Assembly (NCBI GenBank): GCA_003024175.1
Contig: MDYQ01000179.1
Location: 1-56,217 of the forward strand
Source: Planoprotostelium fungivorum
Lineage: Eukaryota > Evosea > Variosea > Cavosteliida > Cavosteliaceae
Reading direction: 5' to 3'
DNA: 56,217 nt
Shown piece by piece: positions 3,836-55,400 of the stretch. Each line of letters starts with the position of its first letter. Within the stretch, counting starts at the first letter, position 1. Below the pieces are notes generated by a model. It made no database searches, had not been told where the DNA came from, and worked only from the letters and a program-made list of their open reading frames with translations. The translations under genes were made by a program, and so were the position numbers.

Positions 3836-4923
3836 ATGAAGCAACAGATCGTCTTAAGCATCCTCCTCTTTGCGCTCGTAAGCTCGCACCAGTTCAACCC
3901 AGACTTGGTCAACAAGAGAGGCTTCTGCGGCAAGAGAGCCGAAGACTCGTGCGAGCTCTTCGCAGATGTGACAGAAGGACCTTACTACATCCATTCCATT
4001 GTTCGTGACAACATCACGTGAGTCGACGACACATGACTTCGTCTCCTATCAATCACGACTCACCTTCCAACAGAGAGACACAGACCGGAGTACCTCTTCG
4101 TCTAGAGATCGATGTGACCGACATCACCTCCTGCGATGCACTGACCAACGCGGCCGTCGAGATCTGGCACTGCAGCGCCCGCGGCATCTACTCTGCCTTC
4201 AACTCGAACACGAACCCCTCTACGACCAACTCGACCTTCCTCAGAGGCATCTATCCCGTCAATGCCACGGGTGGCGTCACCTTCTTCACCATCTTCCCCG
4301 GCTGGTACACCGGCCGCGTGACACACATCCACGTGAAGGTGCACTACAACGGCACAGTCAACTCGACCGGCTACTACACTGGAGGCAGCGTGGCCCACGT
4401 CGGGCAGCTCTTCTTCACAGATGCCCTTGTAGACGAGATCGCTCAGCTGGCACCATACACTTTGAACACCAACTCGATGACTGACATCGATGACGACAAC
4501 ATCTACGAGGCATCGGGAGCTCACGCCATTTTACCGTATCAGCTCGTCGGTACGAACGTGTCCGAAGGCATCGTGGCAAGGATATCGATCGGTGTCAACA
4601 CTTCTCTGTCCATCTCCAGCACGGCCGACGGTGGATCAAACTCTTCTCAGGGCGGCGGCAACAGTCTCTCATCTGCTGGAGGTCCAACTGGAGGTAATGG
4701 AGGAAGTCAAGGACCTACGGGAGGCAACGGAGGCACTGTGGGATCGTCTGGGGCGATCGGTGTGACGGCCGTGGATGCGACTGTCACAGTGACGTCGAAC
4801 TCCACCGTGAACGGTACGAACGCAAACAGCAACGCCAGTGGTGATACTTCGAACGCCAGAGACAAGTCTGTGGGCTGGACTATGGTAGTTGTGATGGTAG
4901 TTGTCTGTCACTTGGTTCTGTGA
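3836..4923 (+). CDS. Secreted intradiol ring-cleavage dioxygenase-like protein, copy A
   Basis: Predicted non-haem iron(III) dioxygenase of the catechol/protocatechuate intradiol family, here in a secreted form like those of fungi. The chosen ATG opens a signal peptide (MKQQIVLSILLFALVSS). One 56-nt intron (4018-4073) lies after RDNIT. The ligand set is visible: EGPYY near the N-terminus, the first Tyr in RGIYSAF, then Tyr and two His in FPGWYTGRVTHIHVKVH. A Gly/Ser/Thr/Asn-rich linker with many N-glycosylation sites follows, and a hydrophobic tail (VVVMVVVCHLVL) suggests a GPI-anchor signal. Length about 343 residues. Substrate is unknown; cleavage of environmental aromatics is an inference. 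A near-identical copy lies at 25278-26362 in inverted orientation. A longer in-frame upstream ATG at 3761 would bury the signal peptide. Confidence 0.85.
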
Positions 4924-9935: not shown

Positions 9936-12900
9936 TTACATGTCTTTATCTTGGTAATCATCGGTTTCTGCCATTGGATCGAGCTGGAAGGGGGCTGGTG
10001 TGTTGAAACGACGGCGAGTGACACCGGTGACGATGCATTTCTCACGTAAGAGCTCCGTCACTTGATTCATCTTGGGTCTGTCAATGTGATTGGACAGGAG
10101 GCTGGTGTGAGATCAGACATTATGGAGGACGATGGTGGTCTTCTCACCAGCGCTCGGCGACGTCTGTATAGAGATCATACGACCATTCGACGGTCTCTGC
10201 GGGGTCTCTCCTCCTCTGATGTTGGACCTCCCTTCTTTCTTCAGACCATCTTCCCTATCTTGATGCAGATGAAACTCACCACAAGAGGTATCCAAATTGG
10301 CTGATGTCTAATGAGGTATCGGTGTCTTGTGTAGCCTCAGAGAGGTCACACAGTTTGATCTTGATCTCGTCGGTCTCGATAGACGAGACAAGGATATTCG
10401 ATACAGACAGATTCTTCAAGGAGAAGGACTGCTCATGCAGGTAGCCGACGGCCGATGAGATGTCCATCGCGCTGCATCCCGTCAGTCCATCATGAACACG
10501 ATGATGATGATCACATCTGTAGAATCTGGATCGAGGTAAGAGAGGGAAACAAAGTCGTGAGACAGCCCAAGTTTGCCAACTCTAATAGAATGTATCCCTC
10601 GTCTGTGGGGGACACGGTGAAGCCGTAATACTGAACGAAAGAAGGATGATGAACTCTCTGATGGAAGACGTAAGTCATCGAGAGGATGACACGCTCACGG
10701 CATAGAGTCTCTGTTCTCTCTCTCTGTCTCCTCCCTTCTTGTGTGATTTGAGAGCGACGTGGCCTCCTTGAAAGGTGCCCCTATAGACGACGCTGTTGTC
10801 GCTCTCATGCAACCTCTCATGCAGCTCAACTTGCTCCCATGGAATAAAAACAGAGTCTAATTCGAGGTCTCCACCATATGTCTTGTCTCTCTTCCATCTT
10901 TAAAATCGATTAAAATTCCATTTAAATTGATTTCGGTTTCCTTTTGAGATTTTGAATTTGACACTCACTTGAATACGAAGAAGAGGATGATAATGAAAAT
11001 AGTAATCAGGACGGCAGCACCCACTACGATACTGATGACGATAGACGTGTCTAACAACTGTCTGTCTTCCACTTGCACCTGTGCTGATGACAGAGACACC
11101 CCGACGGTGAAATTTGTCAAGTGGCTGCAGCTGCAAATGGCAGAGCCATTATTCGATAGAGAGAAAGAACAACCGTCCGACTTCCATGCGTCGTTGTCTT
11201 CTGACCAATAGAAACAGCTCATGCCTTGTTGTATTTGAATGAGATGGACAGAGAGGATGGAGCTCACCATCGACGATGGTGTGACCTTGGAGGAGGGGAA
11301 CGTGGATTTCGATGAGTTTCTCTGCGATCTGTACTCTTACTTCTCTTCCGTGATGGTAGAGGCTGACGCCGGTGACCTCACCCATTCTGAGGTGAATTCA
11401 GAATGTCGTGTGTTGCTAGTGACGATCGATCGTGATGGTATGCAGATGATGATCGTGATGAGAATCGGGGACAACCGGAGATCGATGACTTCGATGATGA
11501 TGACTACATGGATGTGATGATGATCGCGTGATGACAGTGATGGTGAAGATCATCACATGTTGAATGAGTTTGGATCCGGCAATGGATTGAACGACACACG
11601 GTTGAGTACCGCATAGACACCCTTGCTATCACCATTCGACACCTGCTGAATGACTTCTTGCGGTATCACGCAAGCGGCCGTACTATTCTTGAAGTTCAGT
11701 TGTGCTGTGTCGTTCTACAACGACGTTCAATAAACGTGAATGAGTGAAATGTCACCTGAGATATCATCTGAGCTGCAATGGAGACATCGGTAGATTCTGC
11801 AGAAAATTGGGTGATATTCCGTGATAATATGGAAGAGGTGACTTGATCTACAACGGACAGGATGGACTGTCCCCTCTCTCGGTTCAAAGTATTGAGCAGC
11901 TGTACAACGTCACTCACGCGAGATTTCGACGAAAACCCACTCTTCCAACGAGAATGTCTGGGTCATTGATGGTGAGTTGTACTGGATCCAATGGATTCAG
12001 ATCTCCGTACGTTCCAGCGGTCAAGTTGATGAGAACGAGAGGTTGTAGAGTCAAATTGAGAGGGAAAGTGTAATCGAAGGTGAGATTCTGTGCACCCTGT
12101 TTCCATTCAATCTTGACCGACACACACCAACTTACCGGGAGATCCACCCCAGAGACGTAGATGACGTACTTTGCATCGAATGGATTGACGATGAGAGTCA
12201 TCACGCTCATGATGACCGTGTCCCCCGTAAGAGTGTAGGAGACTCGGTCCACCTCCAGTCTCGTCTGTCGATAAGAGAAGTTTGTGGCTATCGAAGGCAT
12301 TCCGTCCGACACAGCTATCACTTGTAATTCACCGTCTGGAATGGTAGGATCAATGGAAGACAGGGTGAACGAAGACGAAGTGTAGTTTGCGAGAAACGAC
12401 TGAGAATGGATCGATCGACCTCCTCTCCACAGGGAGATGTTGAGATCACGGCCCGGATCATCGATGGAGACGTCGATGGAGAGTGGTGAGGTCTGTTCGA
12501 TATTTTGGAACACCATGGGATCGTACGTGTAGTTAAACCATAGATATTCATCGGTGACTGTTCGGATGATGATCGATCTGGATGATTTCCCAGGAGGTGG
12601 TGGTGGCAGTGTCCCCGTGAAGGAGGTACCACTGCAGCTGATGTTTTGAAAGATGTCGTAGGACGGAGCAAGGTCTGTATCACGAGTGCAGTTGATGTCG
12701 GCACTGGTGACGTTGATGGTGACGGGTCCACCTGATGTGGGACGGGGGGTTGAAACCTGGGGACCTCAGGTGCGCAAGAGATATTACTATCAACTCACAC
12801 CGATGATGAGAGATGATTTAAAGGTCACGGTCTCGTTATTATTGCTGAAATTTCTCCAGCTTACGATGATGTGTCCACCTTCGAGTGTGAGAGTGGAATT

Positions 12901-13303
12901 ACCCGGCTGGTCAGTGGATTGTCCTCCCTTCCACTGTTGAGAGCCCAAACCCAATGTCAATCTGCCATCTGTACGTTTCAACCCAGTCGAATGACCATCC
13001 GCATTCCCACACATTCGTCTACAGACATATATGGAGAGCTACCAGAGATTTTGATCGACCAAACGGTTTGTTGTCTCTCAGATCCGCTCACCAACATGGC
13101 CGAGGGACCACCGAGGTACAGAGCCCAATTTCCATCTGATGATCGCAGGGGGCCATTGGTGGCGTTCAGAGCTACTTTTGGACTGCTCGTCAGCGAAGTC
13201 AGATTCTGTGCGTACAACAACATGGGGAGCAACGAGAAGAGGAGGTAAAATCTGTTCTCATCTATCAAAAGAGACCATTGAGTAGGTCTCACGTGTTGGA
13301 CAT
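9936..13303 (-). CDS. Receptor with REJ-like ectodomain, GPS autoproteolysis motif, one TM and pseudokinase-like domain
   Basis: About 930 residues from some 13 exons. Exon 1 is only ATG TCC AAC AC; a 41-nt intron leads to the rest of the signal peptide (FYLLFSLLPMLLYAQN). A glycosylated ectodomain of about 540 residues with beta-rich, REJ/Ig-like stretches follows. A complete GPS motif comes next: CFYWSEDND, DGCSF, then CSCSHLTNFTVGV, with all four Cys and the HL/T cleavage site. One membrane span (SIVISIVVGAAVLITIFII) follows, then a kinase-fold domain: VYRGTF, GGHVALKSHKK, YILLELANLGCL, YLHEQSFSLKNLSVSNILV, KLCDLSEA, HIDRPKMNQVTELL. HRD is LKN and DFG is DLS, so the catalytic Asp is missing and activity is doubtful. 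Its start lies 190 bp below the channel gene on the same strand. Splice phases match at every join I checked. Confidence 0.8.
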
Positions 13304-25277: not shown

Positions 25278-26362
25278 TCACAGAGTCAAGTAAAAGGCCA
25301 TGGCCATCGTAACTGCCACATTCCAGCCCACAGACTTGTCCCTCGCGTTCGAAGTATCATTGCTGGCGTTGCTGTTTGCGTTCGTACCGTTCACGGTGGA
25401 GTTTGATGTCACTGTGACAGTTGCATCCACGGCAGTCACACCGATCGCCTCAGACGATCCCACAGTGCCTCCGTTGCCTCCTGTAGGTCCTTGACTTCCT
25501 CCATTACCTCCGGTTGGACCTCCAGCAGATGAGAGGCTGTTGCCACCGCCCTGAGAAGAGTCCGATCCACCGTCGGCCGTGCTCGAGATGGACAGAGAAG
25601 TGTTGACACCGATCGATATCCTCGCCACTATGCCTTCGGACACGTTCGTACCGATCAGTTGATACGGTAAGATGGCGTGAGCTCCCGATGCCTCGTAGAT
25701 GTTGTCGTCATCGATGTCAGTCATCGAGTTGGTGTTCGAATTGTATGGTGCCAGCTGAGCGATCTCGTCTACGAGGGCATCAGTGAAGAAGAGCTGCCCG
25801 ACGTGAGCCACACTGCCTCCAGTGTAGTAGCCGGTCGAGTTGACTGTGCCGTTGTAGTGCACCTTCACGTGGATGTGGGTCACACGGCCTGTGTACCAGC
25901 CGGGGAAGATGGTGAAGAAGGTGACGCCACCCGTGGCATTGACGGGATAGATGCCTCTGAGGAAGGTCGAGTTGGTCGTAGAGGGGTTCGTGTTCGAGTT
26001 GAAGGCAGAGTAGATGCCGCGGGCGCTGCAGTGCCAGATCTCGACGGCCGCGTTAGTCAGTGCATCGCAGGAGGTGACGTCGGTCACATCGATCTCTAGA
26101 CGAAGAGGCACTCCGGTCTGTGTCTCTCTGTTGGAAGGTGAGTCGTGATCGATAGGAGACGAAGTCGTGTCGTCACTCACGTGATGTTGTCACGAACGAT
26201 GGAATGGATGTAGTACGGTCCTTCTGTCACATCTGCGAAAAGCTCGCACGAGTCTTCGGCTCTCTTGCCGCAGAAGCCTCTCTTGTTGACTAAGTCTGGG
26301 TTGAACTGGTGCGAGCTCACGAGCACAAAGAGGAGGATGCTTAAGACGATCTGCTGTTTCAT
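25278..26362 (-). CDS. Secreted intradiol ring-cleavage dioxygenase-like protein, copy B
   Basis: Paralogue of the gene at 3836-4923, in opposite orientation, with the same signal peptide (MKQQIVLSILLFVLVSS), the same single intron and the same iron ligands (RGIYSAF; FPGWYTGRVTHIHVKVH). Only a handful of residues differ through the catalytic part and linker (for example Ala to Val in the signal peptide, Ile to Val in TDVTS, Thr-Leu to Asn-Ser in APYNSN). The last 16 residues are different in sequence yet still hydrophobic (NVAVTMAMAFYLTL), which keeps a possible GPI-anchor signal. Both copies look intact, so both may be expressed. Confidence 0.85.
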
Positions 26363-52472: not shown

Positions 52473-55400
52473 ATGCCCAAGAAATTCTCCAACATCTTGG
52501 GTAAGAAGGATGCGAAATCCCGCACTGCTGAGCCCGCTGCATCGGAGGCTTCTTCAACTCCCGCTGCAGCTCCTCCAGTAGCAGCTGTAGCAGTAGCAGA
52601 GATTCCAGCCGAAAACGGTTCTAGAGGTTCTGTATCGCCTCCAGGTGAGCCCGACTTCATTTATCATTTTCGAATCGTGCGGTTCGTGTTGAACGAACAC
52701 GTACCTTTATTTCTTGAGACGTCGCTGATGGGGGACAGAATCTTCCACCCCAACATTAGAACGATCTGGATCTCAAAACAACACTGGAGACGGTCCCATC
52801 TCAACCACTTCAGAGGTCTCCGCCCAGAAGGACTCACCCGTCTCCGGTTTGTCATCCACAATGTTTCACATTGAATCACATTGTCTAATGACCATCGCAG
52901 GATCACCAGAGACATCACCTCCCGTGGAGAGAAAAATTCCAATCGGAGGCATCGGCATGGGCGCCCTTGGACTCAGCCCAGAGTTGTTGAGGATGAAACG
53001 TGGCACATTAGGACCGAGTGAGTCTCTCATCTGCCGCTCTACATCTCACACTCTTCCAGACAGTGCCAGTCAGCCCGAAACCAAGCAGGCCGCTCCCGCC
53101 AAACGTGAGAATTTGAAATTCGAATCGACTGACCGTTACGCAGCCACCATCGGTCCCTTCATGTTAAAGAAGACGGAGAAGCCAGCACAGCCCGTGGTAG
53201 CTCCTCCTGCTGCGGCTGCCGCCGTGCCTTGGTCTGACAAGAAGAAATTGTTGAATAATTCGACGACCGGTTCATCTACAACGGACAAACCTGTACCCAT
53301 CAAAGAGAAATCGAAGGAAAACATCGTTCAGGAATCTGTAGCGAACGCAGGGCCACACAAAGAGCTACCTGTACCACAGAAAGAACTACCCGTGCCACAG
53401 AAAGAACTACCCGTGCCACAGAAAGAACTACCCGTGCCACAGAAAGAACTACCCGTGCCACAGAAAGAACTACCCGTGCCGCAGAAAGAACTACCCGTGC
53501 CACAGAAAGAATTACCCGTGCCACAGAAAGAACTACCCGTGCCACAGAAAGAATTACCCGTACCACAGAAGCTAGGATCTTCGGGGAATATTCAGAAGGA
53601 GCTACCTGTACTCCCCAAGGCAGAAATTTCGGAGAACGTTCAGAAAGAATTACCCGTATTACCCGGTGGACCGCAGAAGGAATTACCCGTACCATCTAAG
53701 GTAGAAGTTTCCGAGAATATTCAGAAGGAGCTACCCACCCTCCCCACCCCAGAGCCTCAGAAAGAATTACCCGTGCCCCCCAAGGCAGAAATTTCAGAGA
53801 AAATTCACGAGGACGTTACCCCCCGCGAGAAGACTCAGCCGGTAGCGTTGGTACGTAACTCGAAATTTTCACCGGATTTCTCACCTCTCACATCAGACTG
53901 CGGCACAATTGATTGAGCAGAGGACGGCGGGGTTCAAACAAGTGGACGCCATACCCGCCATAGGAGAAGCTGGTGAAATCTCGATGAAATTTCGTTCGAA
54001 ACTCACCTCACGCACAGAAGTGACTGTCGCCCACGTTGCCGTGACAACACCAGCCGAGGTACAAGCGAAAGAGATGGAGAGAGAGCCCGTCGTGGCAGGA
54101 GAAATTTCCGAGAACGTTCACAAGGAGCTACCCGTACCTCCAAAGGCAGAAATTTCTGAGAAAGTTCACGACCAACCACCCATTGTACAAGAGGTCATCC
54201 TACAGGATGAATTACCCACGCCAACTACCGAGGAGAAGCCGCAAGCTGAAGAGAAAACCGATGAAATTTCAGAGAAATCTCAACCACCATCTCGCAAGAC
54301 ATCAACAGCTTCTCAAATTCCACCTGTACAAGAAAACTCGGAGAAATCTCAGCCACCTTCTCGTAAGACATCGAATGCGGCCCAAGTCCCTCCCGCCCAG
54401 GAAAATTCCGAGAAAATTCACTCCCGTAAGACGTCGACCGCGTCTCAAAATCCTCCCGCCGGAGAAATTTCGGAGAAATCTCCTCGATCCCGCCAGACCT
54501 CCATCGCATCGCAGAACCCTCCCGCCCAAGAAAATTCCGAGAAGATTCACTCCCGCAAACCGTCGACCGTAGAAGCCGCAGAAATTTCGGAGAAAACTCA
54601 TTCTCGCCAGCCATCGACAGCTGCTCGAGAAAATTCGGAGAAGATTCCCACGGAGACGGAGGGTACCCTGGACGGTGTCACCGCCGCCGGACCTGTTCTC
54701 GTGAGTTTTCTGTGACTTTTCGCGTTCTTCGGGATGACATAATCAGAAATCGATCAAGAAGCCTGCCGGAGCATCCAGGAGGCCGCCCACTCGCGCTTCC
54801 GCCGCCGTGAGAGCGAAGGCGGCGATGCCCAACGAGCCCACCGTAACTCCAACGAAAGTGGAGGTGATCACGTTCACTCCTCGCTCATCATCCATGTCAT
54901 CACGATCATCAACGTCATCGCGTGATCATCAATCTCACCATGTTCCTCATCTTGTCATGATCATGATCATCATCTCGTGATGATCGTGTGTTCACCAACT
55001 TTAGATCGAGGATCCAGCCGCAGCTGCCGGAGGCATCGCAGCGGCCGCAGCGAGCAAGAGGAACACGATGATGTACGGTGGTGCTCCTCAATTGGGCGCC
55101 ATTGCCATGGCAGCCGCACAGAGACAAGCCGCCCGCCCCGTCGTGGGTGACCCACGTGAGTTGTAGACGGAACATTCTCCGAACATTCTGACCCCACTCA
55201 GTAGTCAACCGAGGAAAGGCGGGAACGGCCGCACCACAGACCGATTTCCGTTCGGCTCTGAAATCTCCGGGAAATCGCGCGACGGTGATATTTTGTCGAT
55301 TTTTGTATCTACAACGAGCCACTGACTCGTTGTAGATCGCCCCCGGCTCAATCTCACCCCAGATGGTTGCCCCTTCCGCTTTCAAGAGAAACGCCGAAGC

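Follow-up and report, generated by a model that had tools for sequence, protein, structure and literature searches.

The locus described here raises the question of whether a GPS, the self-cleavage motif of GAIN domains, can serve a receptor that crosses the membrane only once and carries, on its inner side, a kinase-fold domain without the residues of catalysis. In the available part of a 2025 paper, only adhesion GPCRs and PKD1-like proteins are named as GAIN carriers (PMC11697300). The gene lies on the minus strand of a contig from the amoebozoan Planoprotostelium fungivorum, and the window, meaning the whole stretch of DNA that was analyzed, comprises 56,217 nucleotides. An amoebozoan origin fits a myosin-II exon of this genome, whose match to myosin-2 of the Dictyostelium type (254 bits) exceeds that to animal myosins (203 bits).

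A spliced open frame running from an ATG at 13303 to 10119 joins 13 predicted exons into 826 stop-free codons (Table 1). An earlier note on this DNA had proposed that one such frame encodes a signal peptide, a long glycosylated ectodomain, a GPS, a single span, and a kinase-fold domain, and this proposal is upheld, both by the frame itself and by 77 of the 80 further GPS loci read in the genome, at which GPS, span, and kinase-fold domain follow one another in the same way. All 12 introns are of the GT..AG type; nine measure 41-52 nt and the remaining three 71, 74, and 170 nt, sizes that are plausible because the median intron in the kinase domains of paralogs is 44 nt (326 introns, models scoring >400). 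Some details remain uncertain: an alternative acceptor at 12097 (39-nt intron) would give 829 codons, and the intron at 13042-12969 was placed by eye, with several alternatives existing. When the start exon is joined to the next one, the protein begins with MSNTFYLLFSLLPMLLYAQ, which by eye resembles a signal peptide. On the 3' side of 10228, where the C-lobe and the stop would lie, the solutions of the aligner are weak and shift with the intron length permitted. The gene is real and well formed, its model being established up to alpha-F with introns that are predicted and without transcript data. Promoter and tRNA scans returned nothing informative. Elsewhere in the window, positions 4009-4923 (+) and 25278-26189 (-) are near-identical inverted copies with, by eye, the look of an intradiol-type dioxygenase and a Ser/Gly-rich tail, and an ORF at 52729-53916 (+) contains a heptad repeat run of QKELPVP and its variants.

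Table 1. Features of the GPS-kinase gene in window coordinates, from the start codon onward.
Feature	Position	Strand	Basis or remark
Start exon 13303-13293 (ATG 13303-13301) and 41-nt intron 13292-13252	13252..13303	-	Spliced open frame
Ectodomain exons 13251-13043, 12968-12799, 12756-12136, 12087-11941	11900..13251	-	N-glycan-rich, no Pfam domain
Candidate GAIN region, exons 11899-11756, 11714-11557, 11386-11268	11225..11899	-	Family alignment
GPS with four Cys, two Trp, and the cleavage tripeptide HL/T	11103..11219	-	PF01825, E 4.6e-10
Linker and single transmembrane span IVISIVVGAAVLITIFIIILFFVF	10969..11102	-	Hydropathy, reading frame
Kinase N-lobe and hinge, exons 10897-10699, 10657-10515	10515..10897	-	PF07714, family aligner
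Catalytic-loop exon: LKN for HRD, SVSN, DLS for DFG, then LDISQFGYLLW (alpha-F)	10280..10471	-	
Uncertain 3' part: exon from 10227, then a short tail or an ORF ending at 9936 (HIDRPKMNQVTELL...)	9936..10227	-	

The GPS, SCFYWSEDNDAWKSDGCSFSLSNNGSAICSCSHLTNFTV, occupies residues 529-567 of the model, and its CSHLTNF, with H561 and T563 by model numbering, is intact. That it is complete and stands directly before a single span, as had been claimed, is borne out by the score of its exon against PF01825 (40.3 bits, cut-off 22.5) and by a 19-residue hydrophobic stretch that follows in the same frame with a mean Kyte-Doolittle value of 3.28. This one span is succeeded by a basic juxtamembrane stretch and the kinase domain, and no seven-transmembrane bundle is present.

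The cytoplasmic part, spliced from the juxtamembrane exon to alpha-F, matches PF07714 with an E of 1.7e-13 and PF00069 with an E of 2e-11, both over the Pfam cut-offs, in agreement with the kinase fold assigned to it earlier; the best single kinase exon alone reaches only about E 1e-3. The best matches among PDB sequences are MLK4, Nod-factor receptor 5, CTR1, and Lck (E 4.7e-8 to 3.3e-6), and these sequence comparisons place the domain with the TKL/TK kinases. The VALK Lys is kept (residue 662 of the model) and the glycine loop is missing; HRD has become LKN, the loop Asn is retained in SVSN, and DFG reads DLS, with its Asp kept. Each substitution that the earlier note had listed, together with the retained Lys, can be read in the spliced frame. 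The activation segment and APE are absent, the frame passing from DLS to LDISQFGYLLW. Such a domain should be catalytically dead, although this is an inference about activity drawn from sequence, and some pseudokinases still catalyze via other chemistry.

The gene does not stand alone. In the 36.9-Mb assembly, PF01825 yielded 176 first-look candidates, 150 of which were scored; these 150 matches, all over the curated cut-off, are spread over 85 contigs, and 59 of them lie within 10 kb of another. A kinase-fold domain was found downstream at 78 of 81 GPS loci when this gene is included, the others dividing into 57 of 60 in a first batch and 20 of 20 in a second. The earlier view that a GPS receptor is fused to a pseudokinase here therefore stands, amended in that the gene proves to be a divergent member of a large family and not an isolated case.

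It should be noted how these loci were chosen and read. The downstream DNA was read by means of a purpose-built spliced profile aligner, whose training set consisted of this gene and the first 60 loci; the 20 loci of the second batch lay outside it. In the first batch, 57 loci came from a preset scheme that took two out of each five of the 150 matches by rank; three loci of the scheme (C277:568, C467:735, and C181) were dropped, and C394, C149:202326, and C58:66573 were added for their known or suspected kinases. In the second, L100 was chosen for a known kinase and 19 loci were hand-picked down the list; a 21st locus, L111 (score 170), which is truncated where its contig ends, was excluded from the kinase counts. 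Forward kinase scores range from 315 to 755, against 36-75 for reversed and 37-77 for block-shuffled stretches, with two higher reverse scores (L022, 401; L110, 350) at places where, by coordinates, GPS genes on opposite strands face each other. Chance similarity is ruled out by these controls, and chance is also unlikely because 77 of the 80 further loci repeat the order and the kinase-lobe introns fit family positions. Introns are commonly placed before HxHP (51 of 58 models), before alpha-E (54 of 58), and before APE (50 of 58); of the two in the kinase lobe of this gene, one falls exactly at the family position before alpha-E and the second beside the pre-HxHP position, at a gap in its alignment. 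The distance from GPS start to kinase start is 389 nt here and 118-537 nt, with a median of 369 nt, in 58 models of the first batch.

Three loci (L025, L034, and L046, with scores of 38, 40, and 73) possess a span, but the next 2.2 kb or so contain no kinase domain; at L025, an LRR-like open frame follows on the same strand. A search of the genome with the kinase part of this gene found no close paralog, returning three self matches and eight weak others. No match to 7tm_2 was found in the genome, but the control genomes likewise gave none. REJ matches number 12 genome-wide, none of them on this contig; the contigs that carry them (C225, C119, C153, C414, and C24) possibly hold PKD1-like genes, and no listed GPS match lies there.

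Catalytic losses of the kind seen in this gene are the rule in the family. Among 78 kinase-fold domains, the VAIK Lys is kept in 63 and the APE Glu in 75, and the DFG Asp is kept in about 18, an approximate count since the letters are out of register in a few rows, for example, L031, L056, and L114. The HRD Asp is absent from 73 domains and kept in only five (L014, L045, L052, L057, and L100), and that of L014, which sits in a loop without Lys or Asn, may be there by chance. Only L052, L057, and L100 (3/78) keep the Lys, the catalytic Asp, the loop Asn, and the DFG Asp together. In the first batch, the HRD Arg is replaced by Thr in 28 of 58 domains. As a control, 19 kinases from this genome without a GPS were read, and the HRD Asp is present in 18, which rules out an artefact of the aligner that makes all kinases look dead (Fisher P 3.6e-14 for 5/78 versus 18/19, the rows not being independent). 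These 19 were hand-chosen from rows with mostly open frames, E <= 1.3e-18, and no adjoining GPS, a choice that favors intact kinases, and the profile applied to them was a generic one, not that of the family. Compared like for like, the GPS-linked kinases in the source list of the controls keep the Asp in three of seven cases (L045, L052, and L100; Fisher P 0.01). A second local kinase expansion, with the catalytic Asp kept, is formed by tandem kinases on C65 and C190 that have HLD loops and TLIDFG (L090-L092, L095, and L096).

The cleavage site has fared differently. The tripeptide HLT or HFT is readable at 81 of 82 GPS loci (60/61 and 21/21 in the two batches), the HFT variant being that of L060 and the unreadable exception, L063, apparently meeting an exon end. 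Set against the catalytic losses, this count indicates that the residues of self-cleavage are more strictly kept than those of catalysis. The cysteines of the GPS vary more: the second (DGC) and the fourth (CxC) are both lost in seven loci of the first batch (L043, L049, L053-L056, and L058), and the fourth alone in L025, L032, L034, L039, and L051. Loci with such losses still keep HLT, so that the cleavage site outlasts the cysteines.

When the first 58 domains and a consensus are placed in a tree, the state of the HRD Asp changes at least five times, and possibly active members are scattered among dead ones. This gene is among six long end branches (1.69), its place being unsure in a tree with 25 of 56 inner branches drawn open. 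Of 23 pairs of kinase domains with an identity above 60%, 22 have a dN/dS (Nei-Gojobori) of 0.05-0.31, and for one the ratio is not computable; the low values extend to L038/L040, both of which lack the Lys, the HRD Asp, and the DFG Asp. Although the pairs share members and dS is saturated in some, these ratios imply that close paralogs maintain their dead kinase domains. Since this gene has no close paralog, no selection figure can be given for it.

On the outer side of the membrane, 19 N-x-S/T sequons lie N-terminal of the cleavage site. A Pfam scan of the ectodomain of this gene returned the GPS alone, with no LRR, REJ, or PLAT match, and its 254-residue middle part, searched against the own genome, matches nothing except itself. 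A B-lectin identity of the N-terminal exons was considered and is unsupported, the only hint being a match below the cut-off (E 0.023) in the paralog L070. Upstream stretches of nine paralogs were picked by eye, each being assumed to belong to the same gene as its GPS; five have Pfam LRRs over the cut-off (L065, L067, L068, L069, and L074), and the remaining four have no Pfam match over it. It seems that the family swaps ectodomains before a constant unit of GPS, span, and kinase.

Whether the GPS closes a GAIN domain is harder to decide. The candidate region consists of a helix-like stretch followed by FNPL / VTGVSLYHHGREVRVQ strands, paralog-like in the alignment, and 11 family members could be aligned upstream over a region ending in the GPS; Pfam detects no second domain besides the GPS in these 11. 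A profile of the upstream region and the GPS together retrieves 26 sequences of the PDB at E<=1, with adhesion GPCRs making up the whole of the top 23 (E 6.8e-12 to 4e-4), and it covers 120-154 positions of several of their chains, for example, ADGRG1, ADGRG2, and ADGRG6. Without the GPS, the upstream profile finds none of the adhesion GPCRs in the PDB and only two unrelated matches at E<=10, and hhalign against two adhesion GPCRs gives only a weak alignment, though in register (prob 17.9, P 0.0014). Upstream-only GAIN scores were self-trained and are excluded from the evidence, and an AlphaFold2 model of the single exon 12756-12136 has a mean pLDDT of 39.6, too low for use. Judged by these profiles, a GAIN subdomain B upstream of the GPS is likely and not proven, a significant match being obtained only when the GPS is included; the full GAIN fold is also likely but unproven, with no significant match for the upstream stretch alone.

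The interpretation we consider probable, with considerable room for doubt, is that the gene encodes a receptor pseudokinase with an autoproteolytic juxtamembrane domain of the GPS/GAIN type that signals non-catalytically via a partner kinase; cleavage and signaling are both inferred, and there are no protein data. The precursor would cut itself at HL/T in the secretory pathway, and the ectodomain would stay attached non-covalently, giving a two-fragment receptor at the surface. The ectodomain may then bind a ligand, a surface, or a prey cell, and its displacement, whether driven by ligand or by force, would change the state of the membrane fragment. The latter is envisaged to signal without phosphotransfer, as an allosteric activator of, or a scaffold for, a competent partner kinase, for which the family members keeping their catalytic residues (L052, L057, and L100) are candidates. 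Because no seven-span bundle is present on which a tethered agonist could act, a role of cleavage in release or shedding is inferred to be more likely, and the linker of about 25 residues from the cleavage site to the span suits a release step. According to the accessible part of one study, an EMR2 ectodomain that lacks the 7TM region but is anchored to the ER membrane still cleaves itself in an N-glycan-dependent manner, whereas the complete 7TM region promotes GAIN cleavage and restores it in the absence of N-glycans (PMC12488864); cleavage in a single-span protein may therefore be inefficient. As for output without catalysis, the plant receptor EFR is described, in the portion of the source at hand, as activating BAK1 allosterically and non-catalytically (PMC11259431).

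Other explanations have to be weighed against this. One, which appears unlikely, is that GPS cleavage mainly frees the ectodomain as a soluble binder, or lets it slide off under load, and that the pseudokinase tail serves trafficking, endocytosis, or turnover. A cleavage motif that is near-invariant though kinase catalysis is lost would be expected from it, and the three of 80 other GPS loci without a nearby kinase domain are compatible with it, whereas the purifying selection on the kinase-fold domains of close paralogs and the retention of the APE Glu and the VAIK Lys go beyond the needs of a trafficking tail. Slightly less likely again is the possibility that the family at large functions but this gene is decaying and has lost its function: its long end branch, the missing activation segment and APE with a C-lobe that is truncated or unresolved, and the lack of a close paralog would all fit, but 13 exons without a stop in 826 codons, introns that are mostly short and regular, and an intact GPS, span, and VALK Lys speak against decay. 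That the GPS exon is part of one gene and the kinase exons are part of its neighbor is scarcely tenable, for although the introns are predicted and RNA evidence is lacking, the matching arrangement of 77 among the 80 further GPS loci read, a GPS-kinase spacing close to the family median, and a frame that runs through the span into the juxtamembrane exon speak against it, and a misreading of two adjacent genes as one is ruled out by the family-wide recurrence of the order.

The preferred reading, a self-cleaving receptor pseudokinase, has partial counterparts among known systems. Like this protein, adhesion GPCRs have a GPS with HL/T and the Cys/Trp pattern, and they supply the 23 PDB chains matched by the family profile of GPS and upstream region; they have seven spans, however, in place of one span and a kinase-fold tail. 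In polycystins, the GPS lies directly outside the first span, a placement that polycystin-1 and PKD1-like proteins share with this protein, but PKD1-like proteins have REJ/PLAT domains and many spans, whereas here there is no REJ or PLAT match, one span, and a kinase-fold tail. Receptor-like pseudokinases, including those among plant LRR-RLKs, CORYNE, and HER3, combine an ectodomain, one span, and a dead kinase of the TKL or TK type, as found here; to our knowledge, none of them has a GPS or cleaves itself. LRR receptor-like kinases carry an LRR ectodomain, which this gene lacks and the upstream stretches of five of nine paralogs possess.

Fusions of 7TM receptors with kinases have been described in choanoflagellates (GPCR-TKL/K and GPCR-TK), oomycetes, and amoebozoans, in a proteome set that includes Planoprotostelium fungivorum; as here, a receptor module is joined to a kinase, but with seven spans, and the available part of that paper describes no single-span kinase with a GPS (PMC12716839). 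From what is accessible of another survey, no GAIN domains occur in the family-2 GPCRs of Amoebozoa, the set including Protostelium (PMC10445921). The Giardia NEKs resemble this family as a very large lineage-specific expansion of a kinase fold, 71% of which (139/195) lack a key catalytic residue; they differ in having ankyrin repeats and coiled coils, and none is described with a GPS in the part of the source available (PMC3218828). A word search of the obtainable text of the Physarum (PMC4758236) and Acanthamoeba (PMC4053784) genome papers gave no mention of a GPS. No single-span kinase or pseudokinase receptor with a GPS or GAIN domain was found in the literature searched, most subscription papers being outside its reach; the earlier note likewise knew of no adhesion-type GPS pseudokinase receptor described in amoebozoans. 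The domains themselves are known; the combination of a GPS, a single span, and a dead kinase, and its genome-wide scale, are apparently new.

It is possible, as a more tentative proposal, that these proteins constitute a third class of GAIN/GPS receptors, with probably more than 100 single-span members in one amoebozoan, swappable ectodomains (LRR and others), a near-invariant cleavage site, and near-uniformly dead kinases. Combinatorial recognition would then be coupled to a mechanical or ligand-driven release of the ectodomain, switching pseudokinases that allosterically drive the few active kinases of the family. In the accessible portion of the GAIN literature, only adhesion GPCRs and polycystin-1 are covered, with a tethered agonist acting on a multi-span bundle. 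If the reading is true, a family of one-span dead kinases that keeps its cleavage site would uncouple what cleavage does from 7TM agonism and would mean that GPS modules were put to use well beyond animals; its dozens of pseudokinases under selection would also provide a natural set for learning how dead kinases signal.
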